DNA of 64,000 bases from Terebella lapidaria (lineage: Eukaryota > Annelida > Polychaeta > Terebellida > Terebellidae), in NCBI GenBank assembly GCA_949152475.1, contig OX424568.1, positions 11,197,667 through 11,261,666 of the forward strand, read 5' to 3'. Each line of letters opens with the position of its first letter. The first letter of the stretch is position 1. This document shows, piece by piece, positions 1,051 to 25,399 of the stretch. The translations under genes were made by a program, and so were the position numbers. The notes below the pieces were generated by a model. It made no database searches, was not told the origin of the DNA, and saw only the letters and a list, made by a program, of their open reading frames with translations.

Positions 1051-1080
1051 AGTCAGGAACACTGGGTTTTACAGTAAGCC
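1045..1080 (+). repeat. Left TSD and terminal inverted repeat of the giant element
   Basis: GTAAAC at 1045-1050 is the target duplication. AGGAACACTGGG at 1055 starts the inverted repeat, which continues to 1080. AGTC (1051-1054) lies between duplication and repeat and has no counterpart at the right end. The inner half contains TTTTACAGTAA, itself nearly palindromic and related to the internal AGTAAA motifs. Confidence 0.8.
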
Positions 1081-1460
1081 GAAGTTGACTGCTACGAGTA
1101 AAAAAAAAATCAAGTAAAAAAAATTATTTACCTACCAGCGTTGACAAAAGTTGCAGTAAATTTTTTTTTACTGCAAGGAGTAAAAAATGTTGGAAATTGG
1201 TCAACTTTGGTGATCGTTTTCATGATGAAGGAACATCCTGAGACACTAAATATTTCGCACAGATGTACCCATGTACATAATAAATCAACACGCAAAGGGG
1301 TACTATGGGGTATCGTGGGGTATCCAGTGTGACGCCGCCTGAAAACAGTGTTTTTTGCCGGTCTGTGCAGAGACATTTTGTTTTGCTTTCCGACATTGCC
1401 GACAGGTGGCAGGAGCATCGCTGTGGTTAGTTTACTCTGACAAGTCAATTTATTTTTACC
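1081..1460. repeat. Left subterminal zone with GTTGAC-N7-AGTAAA motifs
   Basis: Directly inside the left inverted repeat is GTTGAC-TGCTACG-AGTAAA (1084-1102), followed by poly-A-rich sequence, a TTTAC-TGCAAGG-AGTAAA variant (1167-1184) and a reverse-orientation copy TTTACT-CTGACAA-GTCAA (1431-1448). The last is nearly the complement of the motif at the right end (25321-25339). The arms GTTKACT and AGTAAAC make each motif a spaced palindrome, the shape of a dimer binding site. A role as transposase-binding subterminal repeats is inference. Confidence 0.6.
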
Positions 1461-1949
1461 GAGTGTCGTGGATTTTGGGAGACGGCTGTGCGTAAAAACT
1501 TTGTTACTCGTAACCGTTCATCGAAATCTGGACAGGAGCTTGTTATTTATACGCATCGATATTTCAAGGACATGAGAGGAGACGCTTGTTTGTCTTTGCA
1601 CTGCATTACCTGTCAAATTCCAACGTCTCTACCTCTGATTTATGGCGTTTGTGCAGCCCTGTATACAAGTATGTGCGTATCTGTGGCTTTGAGCATAGCA
1701 AGACGGTAACTGTATTTTGGAAATGAATGTAACTATCATACCAATGGGGGTATGTTATGTTTTTGAATTAGCAAATGCTGTCGAGATAAATATATACACC
1801 AGTGTTGTCTTTTGTTTCTCTATTTTTTTGTTAAGATGCATGTGCTGCCGTTGCTGCGAGCGCTTACCCACGTGGGTCATGGACTGGTCGAAAAAGCAAA
1901 TATCATATTATTGCTCTTCACCATGTTCACACGCGCCATGCATGTGATA
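1461..1949. other. Unassigned segment of the giant element
   Basis: No gene, RNA or recognisable repeat is seen. Two short ORFs (73 and 76 codons) have no recognisable domain and look like chance. Confidence 0.5.
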
Positions 1950-2700
1950 ACTATTATTAAGTGACAAAAGTATACATGATATATTATAATTATAGACTTG
2001 AAAGCACCATGAATATATCAAAGTTACCGTGGTTTGCTAAAAAGTGCACATATACATCGGGCAGTGGTGGTTTGCCGTCCATGCCTAATGTATTTGTGCA
2101 CCTTTTTTTTAAATCGTTGACGTGTGCAAGTAAACTATGTTTGACTTATCGCAGTAACTAATTTTAGTTGACGTGCAGACGTGAAAAAAAGTTTTGCTCT
2201 GAAAGTTGTCTATTGCCATACAAGGGGGTAAAATTAAAAAACGATCAGGTTTTAGATATACATACAATGTATAGGCCTACATCATCATGATAATGTACAT
2301 TTATATATTTATCTAGCTGATACAACATGAACAATGAACACCGATATGCTGTGGGTCATGGACTGGTGGGAAAAGCAATGTTCATGTTGCTCTTTAATCA
2401 TGTTAATTAACACGCCAGGGATAACTTAGCCACATGAAGTATATTATAATAATATACTTAAAAGCACGATAAACGTATCAAGGTTACCATGGTTAATTGA
2501 AAAGTGCATATATACATCGAGCAGTGGTGGCTTACCGGCCCTGCCTGATGTATTTGTGCACCTTTTTTTTAATTCGTTGACGTGTGCAAGTAAACTATGT
2601 TTGACTTATCGCAGTAACTAATTTTAGTTGACGTGCAAACGTAAAAAAAGTTTTGCTCTGATAGGTGTATATTGCCATACACGGGGTGTAATGCAAAAAG
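1950..2700 (+). repeat. Tandem pair of about 460-bp units
   Basis: Two units align end to end: each runs from a GATATATTATAAT-like start through an AAAGTGCATATATACATCG-like stretch and a TTTGTGCACC plus T-run to GTTGACGTGTGCAAGTAAAC and TTGACTTATCGCAGTAAC. The paired motifs lie at 2116-2158 and 2576-2618, giving a period of 460 bp. Diverged relatives follow at 4560-5520. No coding potential is seen. Confidence 0.75.
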
Positions 2701-2754
2701 GTCAGGTTTTAGTAAAAAGAAGATCAGGTTTTAGACACACATATACATGTAGGC

Positions 2755-2830
2755 CTACATCATACATCATCATCATCATCATCATCCCCCTCATCCGCAT
2801 CATCATCACCCTCATCATCATCATCATCAT
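2755..2830. repeat. (CAT)n microsatellite
   Basis: Imperfect CAT/CCT trinucleotide runs. The Ile- and Met-rich ORFs across this stretch on both strands are artefacts of the microsatellite. Confidence 0.9.
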
Positions 2831-3015
2831 GTACATGTATATATTTATGGACCTAATACCGATAGATATGATTATGATGAGGACAATATAAAACACCCAA
2901 TATGAATAACTGTTGGAATAGAATTAAAGTCCTTTCAAACAGTTGTAGCACAATCCACACTGGTATCAGTGACAGACACTGAAATACTATATCGTAGTTG
3001 TTTGTACTACATACA

Positions 3016-4393
3016 TACTGTAAAACCAGAAATGTTTGCGAGGTATTTATTTCGCGAATAAAGAAAAATATCGCCAAATGTAAGCCTCGCCAAATATTTC
3101 TATGTCATCCACATCGGCGACATCAAGAAAAGACTCAGAATCAAGTAGCATCAGCAGCGTGTGAAATGGACATCAGCCCGAGGCGGGTAAAAATGTCATC
3201 TGGCCAGTAACTCACGAAATTTGCACGCCCGACAGGCGGGTAACGAATTTCAACGAATTAACTGGAATTAGAATGACGAGATATTGAACATTTAATGAAC
3301 ATTTAGATTACACAGCGAATTTTCTCTGTGTTGGATTGTTGTTCTGTAGTTAGTGATTCAACCAAATTTAGTAGATTTTAAATAGTACTAGCATTCGACA
3401 TAACCCTTGCTTGGGAATCAAAGCAAACATAACCCTATTGTTTGTGGTAATTCTTTGCCTGGCTATTGGTCTGCAACTCAAATGTAGGCCTACCATTCCT
3501 AGCACTCCCTGTCCCGACAATGCGCGGCCCTGTACATGACTTGAATGCACATTACTATAATTGCACATAAATGTAACAAACTTACTTACACACGGACCAT
3601 TGCATTATATTCTGCATCAGCCTCCCCATTCCACTGGATCCCCCCCCCCCCACTTCACGCACAGCATGTGTACAAACCACCCTCCCATTCAATCGATCTC
3701 CTCCACCCCTTCTGTCTATCCTGAATCACTCAGCCATGTGCAGAGATAGCTATATATAGACCGGTTTTAGGAAAATTCAGGTGATGTCACTGGTTGAGCG
3801 GGGTGTAGGAGGGAGATGTGCGGAGGAGATGGTTTGAGGGCATTTCGTATGCTCATATATGTGAAATTTCACAAGCAATACTAGCACTAATATACAATAA
3901 CAATTATGATGGACGTTAAGTATTGTATGTCTGCGTTATCGGGGTGGGGGATGGGGGTCAGTGTGGAAGGGATGAGGAGATTAGACTCCAGCAAAAATGT
4001 ACATCAAATACATGTACTAGTACCTTGTTTTTGACAATACAATTTAGTGTTTAGTATGTCATGTCTTGTGTTTTTAATCTGACATGATCTGAGGAGCACA
4101 AATCCTGTATCATTATGATTTGTGGATTCAGAATAAAAGATGACATGGGTTACCAAGATAGCATCCGGGCTAGTAGCTGTCAAAAGCCATCAGATCAGTA
4201 CATTGTAAAGCTCACTGTACTACATATACTTGTTGGTTTTAGTTATTCATATTATTGTTTTGAAGACAAATACTGTAATGTGGACAATGAACATTTCAAT
4301 TTGTTTGGTTGATTGAAACACAAAAATAAGTCCCCGCCAAATTGGATTGTCTGAGAAAACGGCAAAATTTAGACATTTATGGTTTTACACGTA
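3016..4393. mobile_element. Putative MITE-like element with TACTGTAAAACC ends
   Basis: The left end reads TACTGTAAAACCAGAAATGT and the right end, reverse complemented, reads TACGTGTAAAACCATAAATG, giving imperfect inverted repeats of about 20 bp with TA at the ends. The left end is followed by TTTCGCGAATAAAG, a composition common in Tc1/mariner-type MITEs of marine invertebrates. The interior is non-coding and includes a C-run near 3640 and a G-rich tract near 3950. No empty site exists in the window, so the boundaries are provisional. Confidence 0.4.
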
Positions 4394-4559
4394 TTGCTCT
4401 ATATACGTGTACCCAATGTACATGTATTGAGGGAAGGTCAATGAACTCCAAGTACAAGACCTTTTTGCATTTTAGGACATATTTTGACGTCTGACATTTC
4501 CTGATGACTACAACGTGTATAATAGAATGTGTATATATCAATATACTGGCGTTAATAAT

Positions 4560-5520
4560 CGATAAACAGCCAGGATATACCCATGTATGTGGCACTTTTG
4601 AATAACAAATTGCCTGATGTCAGCGTTAGCCAAACGAACCACAAGTGATCCACAAACATTATAACCAAAAGTGCATGAAAAGTGCATGATGCATCATGTG
4701 ATATTGACATGAATGGTGGCTGACACCCATGTCTGGTGTGCGTGTGGAATTTTTTTTTTGACAAAGTTCACGTGTTCAAGTAAAAATTATTTTACTCTGA
4801 TTGTAATTGACGCACATGCGTAAAGAAATTTTTACTCAATAACTACTGTTGTACTACATGAGCGGTGAACTTGTGCACACGTGAGCAATGAGGTTGCGTG
4901 TTTACTTTGTGTGTATCTTGGGTATGTTGCTAGAAGATATGGACGGGATTTAAATTGTTGCAGTACCATACCATCTTGGATTTATCCACAGAGATTAAGG
5001 TACCCCCCCCCCACCCTCTCGGCAATTACTGATAACTATCATAGAAAATATAAAGAACGTTTTACAACATGTATGCCTATTCTATGTCGTTCCAAACGTC
5101 TACAGACACACTATCACAAACCACTGCTAAATAAAACAGCAAAATTATATGGGATTTCAGATAAATCGTGTATGCACACACGAAACATACCAAGTATACA
5201 TGCTTCATCTTGTTTATTGATTGTGCTAGTGAGCAAGCACTGCTACGTGGTAGCCCATGCAGAAGATCAAATGTGTAATGTTTGAGCAATCCATGCCCTT
5301 CATGTCACCCACATATATATTATTCCAACAAATACATACTAATAGTCAAGTTTACGTGGAACGTGCACACATTATTACACAGGGATGGCTTACCCCCTGC
5401 TGTTTGGTGTTTTTGTGTAGTTTATTATTTTTAAAAAAAGAATTTACGTGTTCAAGTAAACAATGTTTGACTTGTCACAGTAACCATTTACTCCAATTTT
5501 TGTTTTCATACATCTGACAG
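4560..5520 (+). repeat. Diverged copies of the 460-bp family
   Basis: Two further units are recognisable from GATGGCTTACCCC-like text, T-runs and the motif pairs GTTCAC-GTGTTCA-AGTAAA (4766-4784), TTTAC-GTGTTCA-AGTAAA (5442-5460) and TTGAC-TTGTCAC-AGTAAC (5466-5483). A 134-codon ORF at 4881-5285 crosses this region but shows no domain and is not conserved in the sister units. Confidence 0.5.
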
Positions 5521-6299
5521 AATTGTGCACAAGCAACATGAGCTTCATTATGAGGATGTATGCATCCATGGTATCATTGGTATGTTGCTGGAATATCGAT
5601 GATGACGACCACAGAAAGTATAATGACACTTAAGTATATGATACAAGTAATCATGGTAATAAGCAAGCACTACCCCGTGATAACCAATGGTAACCAATGC
5701 AACATTTGACGAGGACTCCCTGCCCCTCACGTGAGACCCACAAATAAGATCCCAACGGTTAACATGGTTACACGTAGTACCCGGATTTATCTACATGGTA
5801 GGAACAAACATTGCATTTTTAGGTTACCGGACCTATGGTCCGATAACCTATTGGCATGGCGTTGCGTCCGTCGTCCGTCCGTCCGTCCGTCCGTCGTCCG
5901 TTCACATTTTTATCTTTAAAGTATATGATCGAATCTTTCTGAAATTTTGCACAAAAATACCTAAAAATATTTCAAGGAAAGGTTTTTTTTTGTTTTTCGA
6001 TTTTCGCATTTTTTTCAAAATGGCGGCCGTTTTCGACGAAAAATGCCTGATTTTGGACTTTGGCGGCCATTTTCTCAAAAACTGTTCAGTAACTTTTTTT
6101 CTTTTTGATACACAACACTCCTCATATGTACTCCTGTGATGTGTATAAGTTTCGTTGCGCTTGAATCGCTCGAAGTGGGCCATTTTGGGCCAAACTTGGC
6201 CCAAATGGGACTTTCCCATGTTAAATTTTCCTATGCTTTATAATGGGACACATTATGCCTTATATCTCACTTAATATTGAGATTAGAGACTAGGAATCA

Positions 6300-6338
<39 letters not shown>

Positions 6339-6782
6339 ATACTGACGTAACCCTGTAAGGGAACTTGCCTTACCACCATCCGACCAACTTTGGTCCGCGA
6401 TATATTGGTGGCGCGTCGCCGCAGTGCAGCGCCTGGCATATTTTTGGTACCCGTGTATGTATGTAGTGTATGGACGGGATTTTCTGGTGTACTGCATTGA
6501 TGGGTATTTGTAGCGCGGCCCATGACAGATCCGGGTACGCCTAGTGAACTAGGTTTCTGCCCCTTCACCACCGCCGATACACCGAGTGCAGCTGTCTACA
6601 ATGTATCACCTGGTCACCATATTAGTGTCCGCTCCAGGCCGACGGACTGAGAAGTGAGGGGTAACCCTTGATCCGCTGAGTGAATTTTGATCGCCGAGAG
6701 CGGGGCTCGAACCCGCCAACGACGAACATTGAATTCCCTTCAGCAGCGGACGAACGACTTAGTGCGTTGCGCCACGGCGCAA
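6300..6782 (-). mobile_element. tRNA-derived SINE with (CAAT)n tail
   Basis: On the minus strand the element begins near 6780 with a tRNA-like head: an A-box-like TGGCGCAACGCACTAAG, then a B-box GGGTTCGAGCCCC (about 6703-6716), the two pol III promoter elements of a tRNA gene. A unique body of roughly 350 bp follows, ending in a tetranucleotide tail (6301-6339). It interrupts the first tandem monomer of element A. A functional tRNA is unlikely because no acceptor stem with anticodon arm can be closed cleanly. The partner LINE is not evident from the tail. Confidence 0.7.
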
Positions 6783-7844
6783 TATAATATTGTGGACATA
6801 TAGGAAATGATATATGCTGAATATTCTCGTGACCTTGAGTTTGACCTCTGACCTCAGTTTCAAGGTCAAAGAACAAAATGGCTAACATCTCGCTTATTAT
6901 CGACTTTACAGCTTAGAAATCAATTGTGGACATATAAGAAATGATATATACCGAATATTCTGATGACCTCGAATTTGACCTTTGACCTCATTTTCAAGGT
7001 CACAGGACAAAATGGCTAATATCTCACTTCTTATCGACTTTACAGCTTAGGAATCAATTATGAACATATAGGAAATGATATATGCAGATTATTGTCATGA
7101 CCTTGAATTTGACCTTCGACCTCATTTTCAAGGTCACGGGACAAAATGGCTAATATCTCACTTATTATCAATTTTACAGCTTAGTGATCAATTGTGGACA
7201 TGTAGGAAATGATATATGCTGAATATTCACGTGACCTTGAATTTGACCTTTGACCTCATTTTCAAGGTCACGGGACAAAATGGCTAATATCTCGCTTATT
7301 ATCGACTTTACAGCTTAGGAATCAAATATGGACATACAGGAAAGGATATACGCTGAATATTCTGATGACCTCAAATTTGAACTTTGACCTTATTTTCAAG
7401 GTCATAGCACAAAATTGCTAATATCTCGCTTATTATCGACTTTACGGCTTAGGAATCAATTGTGAACATATAGGAAATGATATATGCTGAATATTCTCGT
7501 GACCTTGAATTTGACCTTTGACCTCATTTCCAAGGTCACAGAACAAAATTGCTAATATCTCGCTTATTATCGACTTTACGGCTCAGGAATCAATTGTGAA
7601 CATATAGGAAATGATATATGCTGAATATTCTCGTGACCTTGAATTTGACCTTTGACCTCATTTTCAAGGTCACAGGACAAAATGGCCAATATCTTGCTTA
7701 TTAGCGACTTTGCAGCTTAGGAATCAATTGTGAACATATAGGAAATGATATATGCTGAATATTCTAGTGACCTTGAATTTGACCCTTGACCTAAATTTCA
7801 AGGTTAATCATTTTATTTTCAAGGTCAGAATACAAAATGGCTTA

Positions 7845-8049
7845 CTGTGAACCCGTTAATGTTCGCTACCCTTTTATTTTGCGGATTTCGCGTTTTTAAC
7901 AAAATAGCGAACTTTAATGGATCGCAAACTTTAAAAGTTCCATTGAAATTGATGAAAAAATAAACAAAACACGAACTTAAATGGTTAGCGAACAGTTAAT
8001 ATTTCAAAAACGCGAACTTTAATGGGAGCAAACATAAATGGGTTTACAG
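7845..8049. mobile_element. 205-bp MITE with TA target duplication
   Basis: Terminal repeats CTGTGAACCC and, at the right, GGGTTTACAG are flanked by TA (7843-7844, 8050-8051). The inner repeats continue as GTTAATGTTCGCT versus ATTTATGTTTGCT. It sits inside GGCTAATATCTCGC of the 134-bp monomer, whose uninterrupted form in neighbouring monomers confirms the ends. The TA duplication suggests Tc1/mariner-type mobilisation. It has no coding capacity. Confidence 0.8.
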
Positions 8050-8210
8050 TATATCTCGCTTATTATCAAATTTACAGCTTAGGGGTCCATAGTGAACATA
8101 TAGGAAATGATGTATGCTGAATATTTTGGTGATCTAGAATTTGACCTTTGATCTCATTTTCAAGGTCAGAGAACAAAATGGCTAATATGTCGCTTATTAT
8201 CATCTTTACA

Positions 8211-8746
8211 TCTGCCCCTGATGACGCCAGTGTGTCTTTGGATAAACTATTTGGTCGGGCTTTGTTTCTATTGCAAAATGTTGTATTTTACCTTTCTTAT
8301 TGGCATCATCAGAATTTGATTGTATTGGTGGTAATAGATTGATACTTACATTTGTACCACTGAGTCGGTGTCACTGCTGGCGGACGTTAAATCTGTCCCC
8401 GAGGATACCATCAGCTCAGTAGCCTTCGGGCTTGTGATTGGGTACTTTTGTACTTGTCATGTATCTATTCCATGGGGTTAGATTCGGATTTCTAAATTAT
8501 TTTCATAGGTTGTTGGGCAGTTGTATACTAATCCCTGGTGGTAATAGATTGATACTTACATCCATCTGGTGTACAGTAGAAACAACTACATTTAACACAT
8601 TGTCTGCCCCTGAAGACGCCAGTGTGTCTTTGGATAAACTATTTGGTCGGGCTTTGTTTGTTTCTATTGCAAAATGTAGTATTTTACGTTTCTTATTGGC
8701 ATCATCAAAATCTGATTGTATTGGTGGTAATAGATTGATACTTACA
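8211..8746 (+). mobile_element. Family X insertion (about 1.5 units)
   Basis: Flanked by TTTACA (8205-8210 and 8747-8752) and inserted into the CTTTACAGC of a 134-bp monomer. Contains CTGATGACGCCAGTGTGTC, TTGGTCGGGCTTTGTTTCTA, ATTGGCATCATCA and ends GGTAATAGATTGATACTTAC. The first block recurs in the 3' part, so the copy holds more than one unit. The 3' end matches other family X copies while the 5' start differs, as in 5'-truncated retroposons. Confidence 0.65.
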
Positions 8747-9042
8747 TTTACAGCATAGGAATCAATTGCGAATATAGAGGAATGATATATACTGAATATC
8801 TTCATAACCTTGAACTTGAACTTTGACCTCATTTTCAAGGTCACATCACAGAATTGCTAATGTCTCACTTATTATCGACTTTACAGCTTAGGAATTTATT
8901 GTGGACATACTAGAAGTGATATATTTGTTGAAAATTTCATGACCTTGAATTTATCAGTGACTTTATTTTCAAGGTCACTGGACAAAAGGCTAATATCTAA
9001 AATGTATATTGTCCGGTAACCTTTCTTAGCCCTTGGGCTAAT

Positions 9043-9569
9043 TTTTTGGAATGGAACACACGTTCAATTTAGTGGACAATTATATTTCTTGTGATAATCA
9101 ATTATAGGCCTAATGATGAGTTTATCAGTCGTACAAAATGATAATCATATATAAAAAGAACGAATAGTGTGTAATATAAAATACATTTTCCTATCATAAC
9201 CAGTTGCCATTCCGGATCTTAAATCCAGGTCGGAATGAAATTACCCACTAAATTGAACATGTAATCCCTTAGGATCTGTAGATTGTATGAAAGCGGCACA
9301 TGTACATGTACACATCGGTTGATGCTTGTTTTACTCATACCTTTGGTCAAAACTGACTCGTGCCAGTAAGAATGATTTAACTTTAGCAGTACCTTCATCG
9401 GAGAGATTATTTTTCAGTTTCTCACGTGCCACTGTAAAATCAATTACTGGCAACCTGTATCCAGTATAATTTGTGTACATGTATATATTGCTGAGAAATG
9501 CTTACAATTCAAGTCATGCTGTTCAACAGACACGAACTGGTGCATAAAAATTTAGTATGCCCAGCTTGT
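9043..9569. other. Unassigned spacer in the giant element
   Basis: AT-rich sequence with no ORF, RNA or repeat that I can recognise. AGTGGACAAT near 9071 and ACCCACTAAATTGAAC near 9241 form a weak inverted pair. Confidence 0.4.
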
Positions 9570-12500
9570 GTTGTGACTAGGTGCAGAATCCGACAGCTGA
9601 GAATACAATGAATATATGACATCATTAGCATTTATAGAGCCGCGATGAATACAAATCATAACAATGGTACATTGACTAGCAATATCATGAAGATAGAACA
9701 CAAAAGTTGAATTACTACCTTCAGAATAAGATTCACATTTGCTGTAAGTGTACACCATATCCCATGGTTTGATGAATATGTACAGGAATCGTTCATCGTA
9801 ATTGGTTATCATGGTAGTTATAGCCAGTATAATCTTTCCCTAAGATAACTTGTTGACGTGTGTAAGTGAACAATGTTTGACTCTCACAGTAACAATGTTG
9901 TATCGACGTATAGACGAAGAAATTTCTTCACAAAAAGAGGTACGACTCATGGATCATGTACACAGGATATGACACTATATGCACACGTACATACGACATT
10001 ATTGGACATATGGAAACAGAAATAAGGGGCATGAAAATGATAGGCATGCATGTTGATTGTTGAGTTTGATACACGTACATGTAAATTCTCTAAGTAAAGA
10101 ATGAAATATTTTTTATTGCTCAAGTGCCGAGACAGTATTATCATGATAAGTGGACAGATGGGAAAAAGTATGAGGTACCTTGCATCATATGTATCATGAG
10201 ATCATGCACATCGGGATAGGTGGTACCGGTATACACAAGGTTTATTCACTTACAGCAGTAAATTAAATTACACTGCCACTAGTCAATAAATTGTGCCATA
10301 CATATACATGTAACTACTAACGATGGTAAGAGGACTCATGGCTATACAAACTCAGTTTTGTATCATCACACCCACACATACACACATTTTAGATTTATAA
10401 TTGAGAGCAATCCGTGGAATATTCATACTTTACAGGCATCATTAGTTTTCAAAAATGATTTAAAGCTCGGTCTTCGAACCTTTTCAACGTAGACATATGT
10501 CAATAAGATGTTAAGTACGTATAGTTCCAATATGTCAAGCACATCATACATGTCACAAAGCAATTTTGTTTTGTACGGCACACTTGATTGACAATCAATA
10601 GCCCAAAATCTAATTATACCAGGAAATAGCATCTTTGATAATTCACACCTTTTTGAATAGGTCACAGACAGCAATTAGTTCCACGTGCTAATCACCCCTG
10701 ACATTGACAAATATAAAAGATTTAAAAACAATAATTGAACATTGCCTATGTATTTTATATTAGCATAACATCTATCATGCAAGTATACCTCGTAATTTAC
10801 ATTCAGACTCCGTCAGCTGAGAATACAATGAATATATAGCATCATTAGAATGTGTCGAGCCGAGATGAATACAAATCATGACAATGGTAACAGGACATTG
10901 ATTAGCAATATCATGAGAATAGAACACAAAAGTTGAATTACTACCTTCAGAATAAGATAAGGTAGTTATAGCCAGTATAATCTTTCCCTAAGATAACTTG
11001 TTGACCTGTGTAAGTAAACAATGTTTGACTTCTCACTGTAACAATGTTGTATCGACGTATAAAGGAAGAAATTTCTTCACAAAAAGAGGTACGACTCAGG
11101 GATCATGTACACACGATATGACACTATATGTACACGTACAGACGACATTATTGGACATAAAGAAACAGAAACAAGGGGCATGAAAATGATAGGCATGCAT
11201 GTTGATTGTTGAGTTTGATACACGTACATGTAAATTCTCCAAGTAAAGAACAATTTTTTTTTTATTGCTCAGGTGCCAAGTCAGTATTAGCATGATCTGT
11301 GGAAAGATGAAAAAAAAGTATGAGGTACCTTGAATCATATGTATCATGAGATCATGCACATCGGGATAGGTGGTACCGGTATACACAAGGTTTATTTACT
11401 TACAGCAGTGAATTAAATTACACTGCCACTAGTCAATAAATTGTGCCATACATATACATCTAACTACTAACTATGGTAAGAGGACTCATGGCTAAACAAA
11501 CTCAGTTTTGTATCATCACACCCACACATACACACATTTTATATTATATCGTTGAGAGCAATCCTTGGAATATTCATACCTTACAGGCATCATTAGTTTT
11601 CAAAAATGATTTAAAGCTCGGTCTTCGAACCTTTTCAACGAAGACATATGTCAATGAGATGTTAAGTACGTATAGTTCCAATATGTCAAGCACATCATAC
11701 ATGTCACAAAGCAATTTTGTTTTGTACGGCACACTTGATTGACAATCAATAGCCCAAAATCTAATTATACCAGGAAATAGCATCTTTGATAATTCACACC
11801 TTTTTGAATAGGTCACAGACAGCAATTAGTTCCACGAGCTAATCACCCCTGACATTGACAAATATAAAAGATTTAAAAACAATAATTGAACATTGCCTAT
11901 GTATTTTATATTAGCATAACATCTATCATGCAAGTATACCTCGTAATTTACATTCAGACTCCGTCAGCTGAGAATACAATGAATATATAGCATCATTAGA
12001 ATGTGTCGAGCCGAGATGAATACAAATCATGACAATGGTAACAAGACATTGATTAGCAATATCATGAAAATAGAACACAAAAGTTGAATTACTACCTTCA
12101 GAATAAGATAAGGTAGTTTTAGCCAGTATAATCTTTCCCTAAGATTACTTGTTGACGTGTGTACGTAAACAATGTTTGACTTCTCACTGTAACAATGTTG
12201 TATCGACGACGAAATTTTTTCACAAAAAGAGGTACGAATCATGGATCATGTACACACGATATGACACTATATGTACACGTACAGACGACATTATTGGACA
12301 TATAGAAACAGAAACAAGGGGCATGAAAATGATAGGCATGCATGTTGATTGTTGAGTTTGATACACGTACATGTAAATTCTTCAAGTAAAGAATGATTTT
12401 TTTTTATTGCTCAGGTGCCAAGACAGTATTAACATGATATGTGGAAAGATGAAAAAAGTATGAGGTACCTTGCATCATATGTATCATGAGATCATGCACA

Positions 12501-13011: not shown

Positions 13012-14214
13012 TTAAGATGGTGAAACCCTGCCGATTGTTGGCAGTAAATTTCACGACTTTAGTACCGCATACAAAATCTGAGCATTTGTCATAAAACTTC
13101 TGGTAGTCCGAAGTGACTTTTTGCAGTTGGAGGGAATAGAGGAGTCATTTTCTTGTTTTAGAAAAATACAATCTTCGACCTGAAACGTCTGGATCATTCC
13201 GGATCATAACGATAAAGTTGGTACATCCGTTCTCAATATGAACCACGTAATCTTTAGAATACATCGACTTTTTACATAGTGGAGCAGTCAGTGTCTATGA
13301 GCCGAGAATTACTTTTTGAATATACCGCCTACATTTGTCACAAAATGCCCGACTGTCTTTGACACATTTACGAGGTGCGCCATTTTCAAAATATCACGTG
13401 GATTTGGACAACACACAGACTTGAAATATCATCTATTATTTTGATGATTTTCAAAGAATAGCTGACTTACTTGGGATTGGTACATCGTAGACTCCATAAC
13501 GAGCTATCCAAAGCCATGTGACGATGCGTTTTCCCCCGTAAAATTGAGTCTGAACATCGGCTACTTTCAACGTCAGGTGCCTCGAAATCGTGTTTACATA
13601 TTTCCGAGGTCAAAGTTTAATGTATCCTTACGCGAGACTTATCTTTGGTCATGTCGATTCTGGTAATCTGTATAATCCATTGATCACACCAAATAATCCA
13701 CTTTCTGAATACTGAACGGGACTACGGCAGAAAATGTTCGCAGTACGACACATTACATGTGTTTTGTGATATCAATTGGTAGCGGTCATCCTCGGAATAT
13801 TTCCTTCGGTTGTGAAGACCATATTTTGCGACTATGAGATTCGGTAGCTTCGTCCCCAAATGTTTTCCCGTGGGGCACCAACAGTCCCATGTGTTATGCA
13901 TGTATATCGGCATATGACGGAGGTAATCCCAGAAATATGTACATAATCAAGACATATTAGTTCATAGACAAAGAATTGTTGTAGATCGGGGAATGACAAA
14001 CACTGAAAACCATGTTTCCAGACGATAACTGACATATCGCTCACCACGTGAGTTTGTATTCGCTCCGGTGAGAAAGCCGTTGAAATCCGTGAACAGGGTT
14101 TTGAGTTCAATGTGAAGAGCAATACTCACTAGCTGCTCAAGTCCAGTCTCGGTCAGTGATCGCATGGAACCACACGGAAAATCGTCGAGCACATGTCCTG
14201 GGGCGGATTATTAA

Positions 14215-15964: not shown

Positions 15965-16356
15965 TTAAAAAGTAGTGCCTGTGCTGGCCACTTGGGAAAA
16001 TTTTCAGTTATCAATAAATGTCTGAACTTCAAAAATCATTTGTGATGCAATGGACTTGAATTTCAAAAAAATATTTCTCGGCTCATAAACTAGCATATGT
16101 AGTAATGCTCAGAAAAATACTTAGAACATTCGTAATCGACTTTTTCCACAAGAACGGATGTCCCGAAATTTTGGTAGTCAATTTCACCAATTTTAACATA
16201 AGATGCATAATAACTGCGCGTAAAATGCTTTAAATTAGTTATTAACATAATAATATAACATTTATGTGAAATATGTGTTCATTTCTTCAAGAAAAAACAT
16301 TTTCAAAAATATTCAGTGCGCATCACTGACTAAAATATGGCGAGGGTAACAACCCC

Positions 16357-17690
16357 TTAAAAACAATAATTGAACATTGCCTATGTAATTCATATTAGCA
16401 TAACATCTATCATGCAAGTATACCTCGTAATTTACATGAATATATAGCATCATTAGCATGTGTAGAGCCAAAACGAATACAAATCATGACAATGGTAACA
16501 GGACATGGATTAGCAATATCATGAAGATAGAGCACAAAAGTTTAATTACTACCTTCAGAATAAGATCCACATTTGCTGTAAGTGTACACCATATATCATG
16601 GTTTGATGAATATGTACAGGAATCGGTCATCGTAATTGGTTATCATGGTATTTATAACCTGTATATTCTTTCCCTAAGATAACTTGTTGACGTGTGTAAG
16701 TAAACCATGTTTGACTTCTCACAGTAACAATGTTGTATCGACGTATAGACGAAGAAATTTCTTCACAAAAAGAGGTATGACTCATGGATCATGCACACAC
16801 GATATGACACTGTATGTACACCTATAGACGACATTATTGGACATATGGAAACAGAAATAAGGGGCATGAAAAGGATAGGCATGCATGTTGATTGTTGAGT
16901 TTGATTTTTTACATTTACATTTACACATACATGTAAATTCTCCAAGTAAAGAATTATTTTTTTATTGCTCATATGCCAAGACAGTATTAGCATGATTAGT
17001 GGAAAGATGAAAAAATGTATGAGGTACCTTGCATCATATGTATCATGAGATCATGCACATCGGTTTATTTACTTACAGCAGTAAATTAAATTACACTGCC
17101 ACTAGTCAACAAATTGTGCCATGCATATACATGTAACTAATAACCATGGTAAGAGGACTCATGTATATACAAACTCAGTTTTGTATCATCACACCCACAC
17201 ATATATATACACACACACACACCAACACACGCTGTAACTTGGAACAATCAGAGATTTTAAAATTTTATTTTGTTAACCATTTTATTTTGTTATTGGTCCC
17301 AACTGTTTCAGTTGGGACCAATATGAAAAAAAAACATAGTTTGACATGAAATAAAAATGGCAATATATCACATACACTAGGTACATGTCACACAAATTGG
17401 TATACAACAAGCAGTCAACTGTTCAACACAGTTCAAATTTCAGTGATATTATATCGTTGAGAGCAAGCCGTGGAATATTCATACCTTACAGGCATCATTG
17501 GTTTTCAAAAATGATTTAAAGCTCGGTCTTCGAACCTTTTCAAAGTAGACATATGTCAATAAGATGCTAAGTACGTATAGTCCCAATATGTCAAGCACAT
17601 CATATATTTCACAAAGCAAATAATTCAACATTGTCTATGTATTTTATATTAGCATAACATCTATCATGCAAGTATACCTCGTAATTTACA
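16357..17690 (+). repeat. Fourth, diverged 1150-bp unit
   Basis: After the TTAA insertion the repeat resumes at AAAACAATAATTGAACATTG and continues into a further unit with GTTGACGTGTGTAAGTAAAC (about 16686), CAGCAGTAAATTAAATTACA (about 17076) and the CATTGGTTTTCAAAAATGAT block (about 17490). It lacks GGTACCGGTATACACAAGG and has extra sequence at 17240-17450, including the hairpin at 17292-17322. Confidence 0.7.
17292..17322. repeat. Perfect 14-bp-arm hairpin
   Basis: ATTGGTCCCAACTG, a TTT loop and CAGTTGGGACCAAT form a perfect stem-loop within the fourth 1150-bp unit. Sister units lack it, so it arrived with an insertion at about 17240-17450. It could be the terminus of another Helitron-like element; no partner end is seen. 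Confidence 0.8.
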
Positions 17691-18520
17691 TTAAAACTGA
17701 TGTGCTTGACTTTTATTTACTTTCAGCAGTAAATTGAATTACACTGCCAACAGTATTGTGCGTTTATGGTGCATGGCATGGCATGAACTCTCATGTTATT
17801 CACCTACATCAGTGAATTAAATTACACTGTCAACAGTCAATAATTCGTAATGTGTGTCTTATAGTATAGTATAGTTTTCCAGCCATAGATACTCTTATTT
17901 CCATCGGTACCGTTACTTGGAACTCGAGAGTGAATATAACAAATGAAAATAAATTTAAATGTCGCCCTACAGTCCTACACCTGTGCTTTTTCACTGGATG
18001 CTGTAATATACTATTATTGTATCCCCCAGAGCAAAGTTTCGCAGATACTATGGATTTGTCTCCGCCGCGCCGCCGTGTCCGCGTCAACCGTAGATAATTT
18101 CTTGTGAACTCTCTACAGGTTGCAAATCTTAACCGATTCTAATAATTTTTTATACAGACACATCTTGTGGTAAGATCCCGACACCAATCGGTCTTGGTTG
18201 ATTGACTTGCAACACATTTCATGCTATAATTAGCCTGTTTAACACACATGGCTTGTGAATGCTCTATGGGTGGGAGTTTTTGATGCATGATGACGGAATC
18301 ACAGAGGCACGATAAGAGAAACTGTCCCACGTAGAATGTTGCTTTTTCAGAATGATCAAGTAAACATTAATTAGTTAACAAACTAACTTATTACGTCCAT
18401 TAAAATACCACTTGGACACCTGTGTTCACTCCAATACCGTGTACTATGAAAGCAAATGCCACTGGATTCTTGTTCAGAGTACAGAACTGATGTTTTTTGG
18501 TGAAAACAGAACAATATTAC
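17691..18520. other. Spacer with a probable truncated Helitron-like fragment
   Basis: 17700-17850 holds two more CAGCAGTAAATTGAATTACA-type blocks. From about 18018, GTATCCCCCAGAGCAAAGTT and GCAGATACTATGG make a short palindromic start followed by a CCGCCGCGCCGCCGTG stretch, the arrangement of a 5' end of the HINE type, but no tandem core or 3' end follows. No coding sequence is seen. Confidence 0.4.
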
Positions 18521-19050
18521 CGAATAAGTTAACATTAATTTTACTAGTTAAGTCTATTATTGACCGCAATAAAAATGGTTAAGACGAGAAATATTTATTA
18601 TTGAGCTCAACAAAGTAAAGGTTTTGTCCAGTAGAGATTTCACGGGTGTAACCGAATAAGTTAACATTATTTTTACTAGTTAAGTCTATTATTGACCACA
18701 ATAAAAATGGTTAAGACGAGAAATATTTATTATTGAGCTCAACAAAGTAAAGGTTTTGTCCAGTAGAGATTTCACGGGTGTTACCAAATAATTTAACATT
18801 GTTTTTACTAGTTAAGTCTATTATTGACCATAATAAACAATAGTTGAGACGAGAAATATTTATTATTGGGCTCAACAAAGTAAAGGTTTCGTCTAGTAGA
18901 GATTTCATGGGTGTAACCGAATAAGTTAACATTATTTTTACTACATGTAGTAAAGTCTATTATTGACAACAGTAAAATTAGTTAGGACAAGAAACATTCA
19001 TTATTGGGGTCAACGAGGTAGAAATTTGATGGTTGTAATAATGGTCATAT
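18521..19050 (+). repeat. 132-bp tandem array, four units
   Basis: Units begin at CGAATAAGTTAACATT (18521, 18653, about 18784, 18918) and contain TTTTTACTAGTTAAGTCTAT, GACGAGAAATATTTATTATT and TCAACAAAGTAAAGGTTTTG. Units one and two are nearly identical; the last is diverged. Tandem reading creates a duplicated short minus-strand ORF of no evident meaning. Confidence 0.85.
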
Positions 19051-21159
19051 TATGAAAGGAGTTAACATCAATTTTTGCTTGTTGAGTCTGTTAATAGTTT
19101 ATGGGTCGACAGGGATGATAGGGCTATGGGGAAACACCTCAGCGGTCGTCAGCGCCTGGAGTTCGTCTCGTTTATTATTCTATTACTTTATTATTAACAT
19201 TTTAATTTTTTGCTGGCCTACCCCGGTGTGTGGAATTTTTTTAAACATTTGAACTAGCAAATTGGACTGACTGTATATCATAAGCAAATACGAGCTGTCT
19301 CTATCAAATTATGATGTTAACAATGATTTTCTTGGCTCCCTCAGTTAAACAAGATGCATTTTCCGTCATTATCCAGCAAACACAATGTTATAACAACAAA
19401 ATAAATTGAATTTGTTAAACTTAAAAAGTACTCCATACTTTTTTTGTGATTCATAGTCATGTACACAAGTTATCACTTCACAGCAGGCAAAATACAAATA
19501 TCCCCACAACTATATGTTCATCTTGTTAAGCAAAATATTTGTTTCATTATTACTACGATATATAGATTCCAAAATTTCTATGGGTCAAACATGTAATTTC
19601 GATCCCTTGCATGTTATCGAAACACTTATCAACTTGTCAAGGGTTAGTGTGAAGCAAGCCTGTTGACCCAGGATCCCCCATCTTCACAATGGGGATGCAT
19701 ACGCATTCATCAGGTGGGGTAATCAACAAAATGGCCAACATCTTAAGTATGTGTTAGTATTACAGTAAAACGTGTGGCATAGCACACCTCAATCTCCATG
19801 TCATCTCATCTAACAAGCATAGATGAGTTTTTTTTTATATCTGGTATTTCAGAAAAAATACTCCCTCGAGGTTAACCGGAAAGTCAAATTGAGGTTTCAT
19901 TGTGTGCCCTACACCATAATGTACATGTGTAACTAGTAAAGTAAACCAGCCTAATTTTGGACCCCACCAGAACTCGTATATTTCAGCATATTTCGATGAA
20001 TGTTCATGCAATGTGCCTGTCACTCATATACTGGCATCACTCAATGTATTGAAAATGTGTTCAGGATAATGCTTTTCATTGCTCACATGTACACCATTGT
20101 TTTTTTATCTTGATTTTTCTTGAAGAACAAAGTTCATTGTACATAATCAGGCATCCCGATTGTAAATGCTCGCTCCCCATGTGGCTGAATACTGTGAAGC
20201 CTGGTCAGTCAGCACCAGATGTCAAGATTTTTGGGTGTCTTTTTGGGAATTAGAATTTTTCCCTCACCTTCACCCATGCAGATGATGACTCCACATGCAG
20301 CTGAATACTGTGAGACCTGGTGAGCCTGCACCAGAAAACACTGATGCTGGGGCCTACTGTTACAAAGAAAGGTTACTGTATTCACTGACTGACTGTGCTT
20401 GTGCCTGAGAACCCTGTCAGCCAGCCTAATAGCAGTGACTTGTATAACACTGGGGAGTCACTTGTATTATATTATCAGAATAATGTTTTTCATTGTCAGT
20501 TTGTACAATTTTTAATGATCATCGCGACATGCTCATGATAATGTCTTTTCATGCACCATATCTGTCACTGTATCATGGATAATTCATGAGCTTCATTCAT
20601 ATACTGCAATATAGTTTTAAATGTGTAAATATTTCCAAATTGGTTATCAACATGTTGAAAAAATAAACACCATTGTCACTGACATTTTCAAGTGTTTCTA
20701 TGATTGTTGTATTGTCTCTTTTACTGTTAAGTGAACACCTCCAGCTAGGGACAACTCTCAGTTAATGAACATATTTTCTCAAGCCCAACCCATCTTTTAA
20801 CATTGTGATGCCCTTCTGATTAGTGAACACTTTTAACATTCTTTGCTTGGGTCAAAAAGGCATTCATTCACGAGAGGTTTGACTGCAGCATAGTTACACA
20901 CATTGTGATCCAACTCTATCACCGTGACAAGCTCAATTTTTTTTACCAGTCGAAATTTTCAGAGAAAAATTTGTTTGCAGATTAATTATTGTCATTTTAC
21001 CAAATATGGCAAACAAACCATTTTTGATGGGTATTGCTGTTAGATATGCAGATGCTGTTGGTCGTCTTTCTTTACTCATTGTTACTGGTTGCAGTGAAAA
21101 TTTCGAACAACAACAACAAATGATAATCTGGTCATAGCATGTCAATTACCGGTATGACT
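19051..21159. other. Unassigned 2.1 kb of the giant element
   Basis: AT-rich with no recognisable gene. A 44-bp direct repeat (CATGTGGCTGAATACTGTGA about 20178; CATGCAGCTGAATACTGTGA about 20293) lies 115 bp apart, and GTGAACAC blocks recur at 20731-20850. GTTACTGGTTGCAGTGAAA near 21082 may be a degenerate copy of the element's motif. Confidence 0.4.
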
Positions 21160-21724
21160 AATGCCTTGCCAGCTCCACCACTGTTTCAAGCAAACATTTA
21201 TTTACTCGTAGCAGTGAACTTTTATATAAAAACATACTGGCCATAGTAGAAATAACATGACCAGTATGGTTATTTTTATCATTAGTATTATTGTTGGCTA
21301 ACAACGAACATATACCTGTAGTAGGGTACTAGTATGTGAATACTTCTTTCAGCACGAAGTGGGCTTGCCAGCTCTACCACTGTTTCAAGCTAAAATTTAT
21401 TCACCCGTAGCAGTCAACTTTTATAAAAAAAATTTACCATACTGGCCATAGTAGAAATTATATGACCAGTATGGTTATTTTGATTATTTAGGGCATTTCG
21501 GCACGAAACATTCTAGTTTTTTTTTCTTTTACTTTTGCCGTTTTGGTTTCCGCCCCATACTTTGTGAATGCTTGAACGGATCTTTTCCAAATTTTCATCA
21601 GTGTTCAGAAATATTACGTGGAAGACCCCTATTGTTTTGGAGTAGGTGTAAAAAAAATTTACGGCCTACATAAAATAGGTCCCACACACAAGTATTACTA
21701 GGAAATGTTGTCCAGTGGGACAAT

Positions 21725-21860
21725 ATTCTCAGTAATATATATCAGACGGATCTAATTCCCCAGGAAAACATGTCCAGGGACATATTTATATCCCTGGACA
21801 TATGTCCCTGGACATGTTTTCCTGGGGAATTAGGTCCGTCTGATATATATTACTGAGAAT
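21725..21860. repeat. 136-bp near-perfect palindrome
   Basis: ATTCTCAGTAATATATATCA starts the left arm and its complement ends the right arm; both arms contain CCCCAGGAAAACATGTCCAG. One mismatch is visible over about 55 bp. A third, partial direct copy of the arm follows at 21890-21950. Confidence 0.9.
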
Positions 21861-22219
21861 ATTCCTAGGAAATGTTGTCCAGTGGGACAATATTCTCAGT
21901 AATATATATCAGATGGACCTAATTCCCCAGGAAAACATGTCCAGGGACATATTTCCCCGACACTCATGTCCAGCAGACTATTTTCCCAAGGAATATATGT
22001 CCGGGGGGCCCTAAAATTCATGGGACATATGTTCCATTTACACCTGCCCCGGGGTTTGTGAGGTTCGTGAGGATGAAATCAAGGATAGATTTTTAGACTT
22101 GGTTTCCAATCGATTACGCAAAAAGTATTCATGCAATGGCTGCAGAACTTTGCATGGAGGTTCAAATACCACCAGGGAAGAACCCTTTTGATTTGGGGAT
22201 CAAGCCGTCAAATGATTTT

Positions 22220-23480
22220 TGACCAAGAGCTCGGAACCAATATCTTGGGTATCTTGGGTTGAGATGACCCCTGGTGTCAATTTTTTTTTCGCGGACTCGA
22301 CACTTCTGTTTGGCCGTATCTCGAAAACGGTGCTTCGTAGAGTGAAATGGAGCTGAGTTTCGGCCTCCTGGCATCTGGCAAACTAGTCTAGGGGGTATTT
22401 TTGATCGAGACGACCCCTGGTGTAGGTTTCTTTTTTTGCCAGCTCGGCACTTTCTGATTGCCTGTTTCTCGGAAACGGTGTGTCTCAGAGCAAAACGGAG
22501 CTCAATTTCAGTCCACTGGCACTAGACAAATTAAACTAGGGTATCTTGGGTCGAGACGACTCCTGGTGTCCATTTTTTTTTCTACGATTCGGCTTTTTCT
22601 GTTTGGCCATATCTCGGAAACGGTGCATCGTAGAGCAAAACTTATTTTTGGCCTCCTGGCACTATACAAACACCCTGGTGTCGAATTTCTTTCCCGACTA
22701 GGCACCTACTGTTTGGCCGTATCTTGGAAACGGTGCGTCACAGAGCGAAACGGAGATTAATTTCGGCCTTATGGCACTAGACTTGGATTGGCCTAGGGGG
22801 TATCTCGGGTAGAGATGACCCCTGGTGTCAATTTTTTTCCCCGACTCGGCACTTCCTGTTTGGCTGTATCTCGCAAACGGTGCATCGTAGAGCGAAATGG
22901 AGCTTAATATCGGTCACCTGGGACTAGACAAACTAGTCTAGCGGGTATCCTGGGTCGAGATGACCCCTGGTATCGATTTTTTTCTCTGACTCGACACTTC
23001 TTGTTTGGCTGTTTCTCGGAAACGGTGCTTTGTAGAGCAAATTGGAGCTTAATTTCGGCCTGTTGGCATTAGACAAGACAACCTCTGGTGTCGATTTTTT
23101 TTTTCTCTGACTCGGCACTTCCTGTTTGGCTGTATCTTGAAAAAGGTGCTTCGTAGAGCGAAACAGAGCTTCATTTGGCTTTCTGGCAATAGACAAACTA
23201 GTCTAGGGGAACGGTGTGAATATTGGGTCGAGACGACCCCTGGTGTCAAATTTTCTTCCCGATTCAATATCTTCAATATCTCAGAAACGGTCCATCGTAG
23301 AGCAAAACGGGCGTTATTTTCAGAATCATTGCCCAAGACAAGCATATATAAAGGGTATCAGGGATGAACTCTGACCTTGACCTGAATTTTTCTGTTAATT
23401 TGGTATTCATTTTCGTTGATATCTCAGTAACGGTGTGTTGTAAAGCAGAATGGACATTCGACACAAAGATGAATACGGGG
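22220..23480 (+). repeat. Tandem core of element B, about nine units
   Basis: Units of 110-148 bp repeat TCTCGGAAACGGTGC followed by CGTAGAGCGAAACGGAGCTT, ACTAGACAAACTAGTCTAG, CGAGACGACCCCTGGTGTC and CGGCACTTCCTGTTTGG. Starts fall near 22317, 22462, 22605, 22714, 22864, 23005, 23126, 23274 and 23418. CTAGACAAACTAGTCTAG contains an inverted CTAG pair. ORFs of up to 100 codons on both strands follow the repeat and are not genes. Confidence 0.85.
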
Positions 23481-25139
23481 TTTGTCAGTTAAACTTTAAC
23501 CACTGATGTTTTCTGTCATCATGGTTCTAGACAAGGTCGCTTAGGTGTATGTTAGGTAGGAATAGAGCTTCTTACGAAATGCCCCAAGGCATCTTTAGGC
23601 CTTGACGTCTAGTTATTGATATTAATGGCTAACAACAAACATATACGTGTAGTAGGGGGTATTAGTATGTGAATACTATTAACTCCATTCAGCATCAAAT
23701 CGGCTTGCCAGCTCTACCACTGTTTCAAGCAAAAATTTATGCACTCGTGGCAGTCAACTTTTATATATAAAAAAACCCCATAATGGCCATTGTAGAAATA
23801 CTATGACTAGTACGGTTATTTTGATATTATTATATATTATTACACATATACGTCTAGTAGGATACTAGTATGTGAATACTGTTAACTTCATTCAGCATAA
23901 AATGGGCTTGCCAGCTCTACCACTGTTTCAAGCAAAATTTTATTTACTTGTAGCATTCAACTTTTATAAAAAAAAAAATTGCCATACTGGCCATAGTAGA
24001 AATACTATGACCAGTCTGGTTATTTTGATTATTATTATTATTGTTGGCTAACAACAAACATATACCTGTAGTAGGGTACTAGTATGTGAATACTGTCAAC
24101 TTCATTCAGCATAAACTGGCCTTGTCAGGTCTACCAATGTTTCAAGCAAAAATTGATTTACTTGTAACAGTCAACTTTTATAAAAAAAAAATTGCCATAC
24201 CGGCCATAGTAGAAATACTATGACCAGTATGGTTATTTTTATTATCATTATTGTTGTTGGCTAACAACAAACATTTACCTGTAGTAGAGTACTAGTATGT
24301 GAATACAGTGAAGCAGTCAACTTCATTCAGCATAAAATGGCAAAGTCAGCCCTACCACTGTTTCCGGCAAAAATTTATTTACTCGTAGCAGTCAACTTTT
24401 ATAAAACAAATTACCATACTGGCCATAGTAGAAATACTATGGCCAGTATGGTTATTTTGATTATTATCATTGTTGGCTAACAAAAAACATATACCTGTAG
24501 TAGGGTACTACTATGTGAATACTGTTAACTTCATTCAGCATAAAATGGGAAAGTCAGCCCTACCACTGTTTCAGGCAAAAATTTATTTACTCGTAGCAGT
24601 CAACTTTTATAAAACAAATTACCATACTGGCCATAGTAGAAATAATATGGCCAGTATGGTTATTTTGATTATTATTATTATTGTTGTTGGCTAACAACAA
24701 ACATATATACCTGTAGTAGGGTACTAGTATGTGAATACTGTTAACTTCATTCAGCACAAAGTGGGCTTGCCAGCTCTATCACTGTTTCAAGCAAAAATTT
24801 ATTTACTCGTAGCAGTCAACTTTCATACAAAAATTTTACCATACTGGCCATGGTAGAAATACTATGGCCAGTATGGTTATTTATATTATTATTATTGTTG
24901 TTGTTGGCTAACAACAAACATATATGTGGAGTGGGGTACTAGTATGTGAAAACTTCGTTCGGCATAAAATGGGAAAGTCAGCCCTACCACTGTTTCAAGC
25001 AACAATTTATTTACTTGCAGCAGTCCCCTTTTTAAAAAAAAAAAATAACCGCACTGGCCATAGTAGGAATACTACGGCCAGTGTGGTTGTCTTGATCATA
25101 ATTATATTGTTACCGGTGAACTATAAGAAATAATATACA

Positions 25140-25367
25140 ACAGTTGACTTGAATTGACTTATAGCAGTCAATTTATTTTTACTCATGTATAATGCATTCC
25201 ATTGTGCACTACACTGCCCCTGGTGGCAGTGGCCAACACCATGACTAATTTCAGTTTATGGTGTCACAATCTCAAGTGCTGCCGCCTAGTGGCTGACCAC
25301 CTGCTGCAGTAAAAAAAATTGTTGACTTGACAGAGTAAAAAAAAGTTGATGTATTGAGGTAAATGCT
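25140..25367. repeat. Right subterminal zone of the giant element
   Basis: Holds AGTTGACTTGAATTGACTTA, then GCAGTCAATTTATTTTTACTC, a non-repetitive GCCACTAGGCGG-type stretch on the complement, and GTTGAC-TTGACAG-AGTAAA at 25321-25339, in the same orientation as the left-end motif. Motif placement just inside both inverted repeats resembles transposase-binding subterminal repeats. Confidence 0.55.
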
Positions 25368-25399
25368 GGTTTACTGTAAAACCTAGTGTTCCTGTAAAC
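25368..25399 (-). repeat. Right terminal inverted repeat and TSD of the giant element
   Basis: GGTTTACTGTAAAACCTAGT to CCT at 25393 is the complement of the left repeat, 24 of 26 positions matching. GTAAAC (25394-25399) is the second target copy, after which macro-repeat sequence GAAGTTTGTACG resumes. Confidence 0.8.

Follow-up and report, generated by a model that had tools for sequence, protein, structure and literature searches.

Gene-less DNA transposons are usually short and made by internal deletion. Passages of a 2023 beetle paper describe lengths of up to 2.2 kb as far above the typical size of elements resembling miniature inverted-repeat transposable elements (MITEs) (PMC10849321), and a passage of a bivalve survey gives non-autonomous elements as usually smaller (PMC10294476). 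Large retrotransposon derivatives (LARDs) rarely exceed 10 kb in total length according to the matched passages of a review on giant transposons (PMC6431247). In the brown alga Ectocarpus, giant KDZ, EnSpm, and Sola-1 DNA transposons range from >10 kb to >30 kb; the passages describing them report nested insertions fixed among several copies, so that the elements moved whole after being hit, and term several families without transposase presumably entirely non-autonomous (PMC12477816). Here, we analyzed a 64,000-nucleotide stretch of the polychaete Terebella lapidaria (assembly GCA_949152475.1, contig OX424568.1, forward strand; C15:11197667-11261666), which is referred to as the window. It holds a 24-kb insert bounded by terminal inverted repeats (TIRs) and target-site duplications (TSDs), and the same paired ends recur at 36 other loci. 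The insert and its relatives likely represent a family of giant, gene-less, non-autonomous DNA transposons moved by cut and paste by a hAT5-like transposase acting in trans.

The assembly (761.6 Mb, 438 contigs) was searched with the first 81 bp of the insert as left probe and its last 116 bp as right probe; all genome match counts are lower bounds, as the search skips very common words. The left-end probe matched at least 40 places on 14 contigs with 90–99% identity (best 40 of 42 candidates), and the right-end probe at least 39 (39 of 39 candidates). Thirty-seven of the 40 left ends are faced by a right end no more than 100 kb away on their contig, and these pairs divide 20 to 17 between the two strands; three left and two right ends have no partner. 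Pair lengths, good to about 1 bp, range from 13.1 to 62.1 kb with a median of 21.6 kb, the longest including copies of 46 and 62 kb, and the 37 pairs total about 0.9 Mb. Pairs only a few hundred bases long had been named in the initial annotation as the pattern that would speak against a large transposed unit; with probes of 81–116 bp the opposite was found, all 37 pairs being at least 13 kb. No pair shorter than 13 kb occurs among the 37, and probes of this length would miss short elements having only a 31-bp TIR.

The interior recurs together with the ends. A 401-bp core probe gave at least 40 matches (best 40 of 53 candidates), of which 34 lie within the 37 paired elements, about 2.1–4.7 kb from the left end; three paired elements have no core match among the matches listed. 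The remaining listed matches are one in a copy with a single left end and five elsewhere at 82–83% identity. Because the matches fall mostly inside paired elements, the part of the core covered by this probe is the family's own. A core module of about 0.8 kb (3015–3862) also recurs at 78–80% in another dispersed repeat (loci L111 and L112, on C3 and C1, 99% alike to each other over 1.6 kb). We rejected these two loci as diverged relatives of the core, as they share only this module and belong to another repeat family. Two further cases deserve mention. C9:27707352-27733099 and C9:27737716-27763609 are two giant copies about 30 kb apart. Their flanks are identical over the 59 and 55 bp that were compared, and the two are probably a tandem segmental duplication. 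A diverged member on the minus strand (L093, C11:39638554), 86–90% alike over its first 1.4 kb, carries a further CAGTCAGGAAC-like end, placed 31 bp to the outside of the first one, possibly an insertion beside or into a relative.

We then inspected the termini of the 36 pairs outside the window, taking 40 bp of terminal sequence with 59 bp of flanking DNA at the left side, and 45 bp with about 55 bp of flanking DNA at the right. All 36 have one and the same inverted repeat, CAGTCAGGAACAC, as the outermost 13 bp of either end. The left terminus CAGTCAGGAACACT and the right terminus GTGTTCCTGACTG are likewise present in all 36, and AGTGTTCCTGACTG in 35; at 14 bp, terminal identity holds for 36 left and 35 right ends. 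Every one of these pairs is flanked by an exact TSD, of 5 bp in 35 and of 6 bp (CTATAA) in one. The nominal chance probability of 36 exact duplications is near 10^-104, with the exact border chosen after seeing the data, and chance is no serious alternative. Both the inverted repeats and a TSD of fixed length are those of TIR-type cut-and-paste transposons.

The targets follow a rule. Of 35 targets, a set that includes the window and omits one of the C9 duplicates and the 6-bp case, 31 have T at position 2 and 29 have A at position 4 (N-T-N-A-N; nominal p 2e-12 and 3e-10, respectively). Weaker base preferences occur immediately upstream, and the 6-bp TSD CTATAA still has T second and A second to last. 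Targets can also coincide. Two of six relatives compared in detail (A–F, see below), copies C and D (C4:27209136 and C2:51366697; L016 and L019), are inserted one base apart and in opposing directions at a single site of a Helentron-like repeat related to window positions 6236–6244, and two further copies share a target site in a 363-bp satellite. In the window, this 363-bp tandem repeat, the target of two giant copies, lies outside the element at 27751–28489 and 54490–55339 in opposite orientation, and is related to part of a nested insert (8211–8748). For eight of the 36 other insertions, BLAST found the predicted empty site uninterrupted in repeats of the window, that of copy D at 100% over 109 bp; seven of the matches cover the greater part of either flank, and the eighth, that of C4:28, is a weak one (53 of 109 bp).

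The empty site of the window copy itself was identified by within-window comparison. The left flank (371–1050) aligns with 38462–39143 at 93.6% over 685 columns, and the right flank (25394–26128) with 39138–39872 at 98.8% over 735 columns. The insert flanks thus join exactly onto the first uninterrupted copy of the macro-repeat (38462–39872), with one GTAAAC fewer: these letters stand at 1045–1050 and 25394–25399 around the insert and once, at 39138–39143, in the uninterrupted copy. A third macro-repeat copy (46960–48357) also lacks the insert and reads ATAAAC at its position. These comparisons, and the same ends at 36 other pairs, confirm that the insert is bounded by TIRs and TSDs and that two sister macro-repeat copies provide its empty site, and support its being a real transposed unit. 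The borders given initially need a small shift. The GTAAAC letters are indeed present on both sides, but since the 36 other members end in CAGTC on both sides, the element starts one base earlier, at 1050, and the TSD is the 5-bp GTAAA (1045–1049 and 25394–25398) followed by the element's first C. Likewise, the 26-bp inverted repeats at 1055–1080 and 25368–25393 do match at 24 of 26 bases, but the TIR is about 31 bp long and the right end of the window copy is five bases short. Alone among the 37 pairs, this copy lacks the right-terminal GACTG, which was lost through a later deletion or an imprecise event. The borders and terminal features are as follows.

1050–25393, + strand: whole element, at present 24,344 bp long; two macro-repeat copies show its empty site, and 36 other loci are bounded by identical ends.
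1045–1049, + strand: left TSD, GTAAA.
25394–25398, + strand: right TSD, GTAAA.
1050–1080, + strand: left TIR with CAGTC outermost and an inner half that is imperfectly palindromic (by eye).
25368–25393, − strand: right TIR, without the outermost GACTG present in the other 36 paired copies.
1084–1102, + strand: subterminal motif of 19 bp, GTTGACTGCTACGAGTAAA, lying 34 bp inside the left end.
23626–25105, + strand: right subterminal array, about seven units of 208 bp.

The 208-bp array carries the subterminal motif in inverted orientation, at three exact sites and three with 2–3 mismatches, and two more sites lie at 21201 and 21400. It also holds palindromes with arms of up to 18 bp.

Features of the ends and of the target resemble those of hAT transposons. 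In the passages on Hermes, a hAT element, the preferred target is nTnnnnAn, and the left end has quasi-palindromic repeats (STR1-STR2) at bases 11–27, about 220 bp being needed at each end (PMC10368747). Compared with Hermes as described there, the inner half of the family TIR is an imperfect palindrome like STR1-STR2, and the target rule is shortened to 5 bp. hAT groups with 5-bp TSDs are on record as hAT5 (Kapitonov and Jurka 2007, as cited in a passage of PMC12730594). The family resembles hAT5, as far as that passage goes, in its 5-bp TSD with T second and A second to last, its short TIR, and its subterminal motifs, the base rule being extended by analogy from the 8-bp rule of Hermes; it differs in that no transposase was detected in the mapped copies and in its length of 13–62 kb. 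Length is not prohibitive for such an enzyme: passages of a study of Tol2, also a hAT element, report that end sequences of 200 + 150 bp sufficed to move 66 kb and, in another test, 120 kb (PMC2768751), and 13–62 kb is therefore within reach of a hAT enzyme. From these features we infer the enzyme class, its action in trans, and the neutrality of length. A transposase made elsewhere in the genome would recognize the TIR with its inner palindrome and the subterminal motifs, excise the element, and paste it into a target with a 5-bp stagger in hAT fashion. The interior length would be irrelevant to this enzyme; the interior would lengthen by nested insertions and changes of tandem arrays, and shorten by deletion. 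In favor of this mechanism, hAT domains are present in the genome, at least 149 being listed (best 150 of 273 candidates scored). The PF05699 dimer domain of the transposase expected in an autonomous hAT5 member did not appear in the window copy, and none of the 149 lies inside the 37 elements; a partner may lie elsewhere.

Several observations weigh against this mechanism. Examination of 16 of the listed hAT places yielded no transposase bounded by the family's ends. The ten best domains have no match to the 14-bp TIR (up to two mismatches) within about 1.5 kb, and six further ones have no TIR match within 1 kb downstream; a 3-mismatch match near the hAT domain in L103 was taken as chance. 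The tandem arrays are less alike than the rest of the copies; for instance, the right-hand array of relative A is 92.7% alike to that of the window copy, with gaps. The hAT terminal pattern has G at the fifth base, and here this base is C (CAGTC, at both ends in 36 pairs). The mechanism also leaves the lack of short versions unexplained. Because the fifth terminal base differs and no partner gene was found, we do not file the element as a hAT5 member, though by analogy it appears to work like one.

Some of these observations lend weight to a giant non-autonomous TIR transposon driven by another or undescribed superfamily with a 5-bp TSD, for example one of the Transib/RAG type. We regard this as unlikely. 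Duplications of 5 bp are also typical of Transib/RAG, so the TSD fits, and the absence of listed hAT domains from the elements and of a hAT gene with these ends from the few places examined speaks in its favor. However, Transib/RAG ends need CAC, and the termini here are CAGTC. Moreover, the rule of T second and A second to last is that of hAT, as given in the passages on Hermes (PMC10368747).

A hAT5-like enzyme that is indifferent to length does not by itself account for the size distribution: all 37 detected pairs are giant (>13 kb), and no gene was detected in the copies examined. Three options are considered. Short forms may exist and have escaped the 81–116-bp probes or been lost to the skipping of common words; length may be neutral and the family too young for short forms to have arisen; or the interior itself may be of consequence. 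The last option would amount to an obligately giant gene-less class, whose interior acts in cis and whose short deleted forms fail to spread, and we consider it quite improbable. Candidate roles of the interior may be end spacing, replication, or chromatin behavior. If true, such a class would be the DNA-transposon counterpart of LARDs. The family makes both questions testable, namely whether the transposase is indifferent to length, as Tol2 is in the laboratory, and whether the interior has a function in cis. Satellite arrays and other transposons travel in it as passengers, and it could easily be annotated as scattered unrelated repeats.

The initial annotation left it between an element that had moved whole and one that had grown in place, and described it as made of satellites. 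To compare copies, relatives A–F were covered along their full length, in stretches. Much of the length of these relatives aligns collinearly with the window copy, with gaps and array differences. The interior of the window copy is organized as follows; tandem arrays make up part of it, so the description as satellite is only partly true.

1051–5815, + strand: left core, no gene detected; shared by the six mapped relatives except for internal gaps.
5816–9041, + strand: nested Helentron-like insert with a 134-bp tandem array; at this position only in A among the six.
9045–13011, + strand: core containing a 1.15-kb direct repeat in about three copies, a number that varies between relatives.
13012–16360, + strand: nested insert with TTAA on both sides; absent from all six mapped relatives.
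16361–23625, + strand: right core, which varies among copies and contains tandem arrays with 132-bp and 145-bp units.

Substitution distances to the window copy, with gaps uncounted and 7.8–19.7 kb compared for each, are 0.82% for A, 2.71% for E, 2.84% for C, 3.04% for D, 4.92% for F, and 4.99% for B, and the seven mapped copies are 0.8–5.8% apart. A and the window copy, which differ by 0.82% over 19,722 bases, lie on different contigs and have different TSDs (CTTAG and GTAAA). They nevertheless share the nested insert 5816–9041 at the same position, which argues that the unit moved whole with its passenger aboard. B and F, on different contigs with the TSDs CTATAA and TGTAT, are 1.05% apart over 15,359 bases and have in common a 1.3-kb segment absent from the window copy; D has extra sequence near the same place. 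Judging from these copies, units of about 18–21 kb moved whole. The window unit was probably about 21 kb at its last move, because 13012–16360 is absent from all six mapped relatives. Both parts of the initial alternative are therefore retained in unequal measure: the insert mainly moved whole, with growth by nested insertions in addition, and 5816–9041 predates the last move. The proposal that the insertion is younger than the macro-repeat duplication fits the two uninterrupted copies and the small distance to A, and homogenization of the array stands as an alternative to it.

The nested insert 5816–9041 looks like a non-autonomous Helentron (HINE). It has the subterminal inverted repeats GGTTACCGGAC and GTCCGGTAACC and a 3′ hairpin (TTAGCCC-TT-GGGCTAA), and its insertion point lies between two T residues; F holds related sequence at another place. 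Helentrons that bear satellites have been described from oysters (PMC7492417), a precedent for the nested insert, not for the giant element. The second nested insert, 13012–16360, is possibly a piggyBac- or Kolobok-type passenger, its ends being not clearly inverted.

Growth in place in the strict sense would mean that the insert expanded from a short element by satellite expansion, and that the other large copies arose likewise or by segmental duplication. Nested inserts and variable tandem arrays do alter length between copies, and the C9 pair reads as a tandem segmental duplication. Against this stand the collinear core, with most long blocks 90–99% alike between copies that have unrelated flanks and different TSDs, the distance of about 2.1–4.7 kb between the left end and the 401-bp core match in 34 of the 37 paired elements, and the lack of any short ancestor among the 37 pairs. 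We therefore think this origin very improbable.

Genes were sought in the window copy and relatives A–F. The listed hAT domains were checked against all 37 intervals, a check that is the one covering the interiors of the other 30 paired elements, the 46-kb and 62-kb ones among them. The longest stop-to-stop frame within 1051–25393 is 138 amino acids, which bears out the initial statement that there is no long open reading frame. Six-frame Pfam scans of this interval (stops as X, E up to 0.1) gave no match over a curated cut-off. Sub-cut-off matches to MINDY_DUB (E = 0.0078) and DUF5473 were rejected as signs of a hidden gene, as were those to DUF5063, SH3b_P2, DUF4899, and PuR_N in the nested Helentron-like insert. 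Rfam gave no match at gathering scores in 1–26000. Frames of at least 140 amino acids in the six relatives are limited to five in A and one, of 198 amino acids, in satellite-related sequence of F; the five in A lie in segments unmatched by the window copy and resemble nested retrotransposons (by eye, first 60 residues). Outside the element, long frames at 33789–37188 resemble the endonuclease and reverse transcriptase of a non-long-terminal-repeat retrotransposon (by eye).

Coding constraint was assessed in 108 stretches of at least 45 codons that contain no stop in the window copy or in any of the aligned relatives (at least two), with gaps skipped. The median ratio of nonsynonymous to synonymous substitution rates (dN/dS) is 0.9, and the eight lowest values are 0.12–0.36. 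Three low stretches lie close together on the + strand in different frames, with dN/dS of 0.12–0.24 and 32 changes in total: 21923–22093 (5 silent, 3 changing), 22089–22259 (4 and 2), and 22346–22522 (10 and 8). These low values are probably noise, and a short exon there may be an alternative. The stretches lie in a GC-richer part of the element (47.5% at 22001–23000). Among insertions and deletions that distinguish the copies, lengths of 1 and 2 bp prevail, and 6 bp slightly outnumbers 5 bp. By these measures the window copy has no recognizable gene and shows little sign of coding constraint.

Polintons/Mavericks have TIRs of at least 100 bp, 6-bp TSDs, and genes for polymerase B, integrase, and capsid. 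A decayed member, once a coding unit of 15–25 kb that has lost its genes, would be similar in overall length, and large TIR-bounded elements of this kind are known. However, no polymerase, integrase, ATPase, or capsid domain passed the cut-off in the six-frame scans of the window copy, the TIR is about 31 bp instead of hundreds, the TSD is 5 bp in 35 of 36 pairs instead of 6 bp, and seven mapped copies only 0.8–5.8% apart are too young for separate decay; we give this origin hardly any credence. An assembly artefact at 1050 or 25394, conceivable as macro-repeats and satellites are prone to misassembly, is practically negligible given the exact junction duplication and the same ends at 36 other places.

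A family of apparently gene-less, hAT-like giants thus remains the preferred reading, and it can be placed among known systems. MITEs and other non-autonomous TIR elements are also gene-less, bounded by TIRs and TSDs, multi-copy, and moved in trans, but MITEs are under about 1–2 kb, and the present family, whose shortest pair among the 37 is 13.1 kb, is ten to a hundred times longer. Polintons/Mavericks share the size range and the presence of TIRs and TSDs, and differ in their long TIRs, 6-bp TSDs, and polymerase, integrase, and capsid genes. ToxhAT (14 kb) is a large unit named as a hAT-type transposon, but it is fungal and gene-carrying. Teratorn of medaka (180 kb) is a giant animal DNA transposon, but it is a gene-rich piggyBac-like element fused to a virus. 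That virus is reportedly a herpesvirus. LARDs resemble the family in that their interior is not necessarily coding and they are moved in trans; according to the matched passages they differ in lying between long terminal repeats, moving via RNA, and rarely exceeding 10 kb, and the passages of that review matched here make no mention of hAT (PMC6431247). By title, no giant gene-less TIR family appeared in the open-licence literature searched. The Ectocarpus giants, as the passages describe them, share size, fixed nested inserts, whole movement, and the existence of transposase-less families, and differ in having transposase remains or accessory genes, in belonging to other superfamilies, and in residing in a brown alga, whereas the present family has no gene detected and a 5-bp N-T-N-A-N TSD (PMC12477816). 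They are the nearest precedent, and the advance here lies in a form that is apparently gene-less and hAT-like and not in giant size itself.

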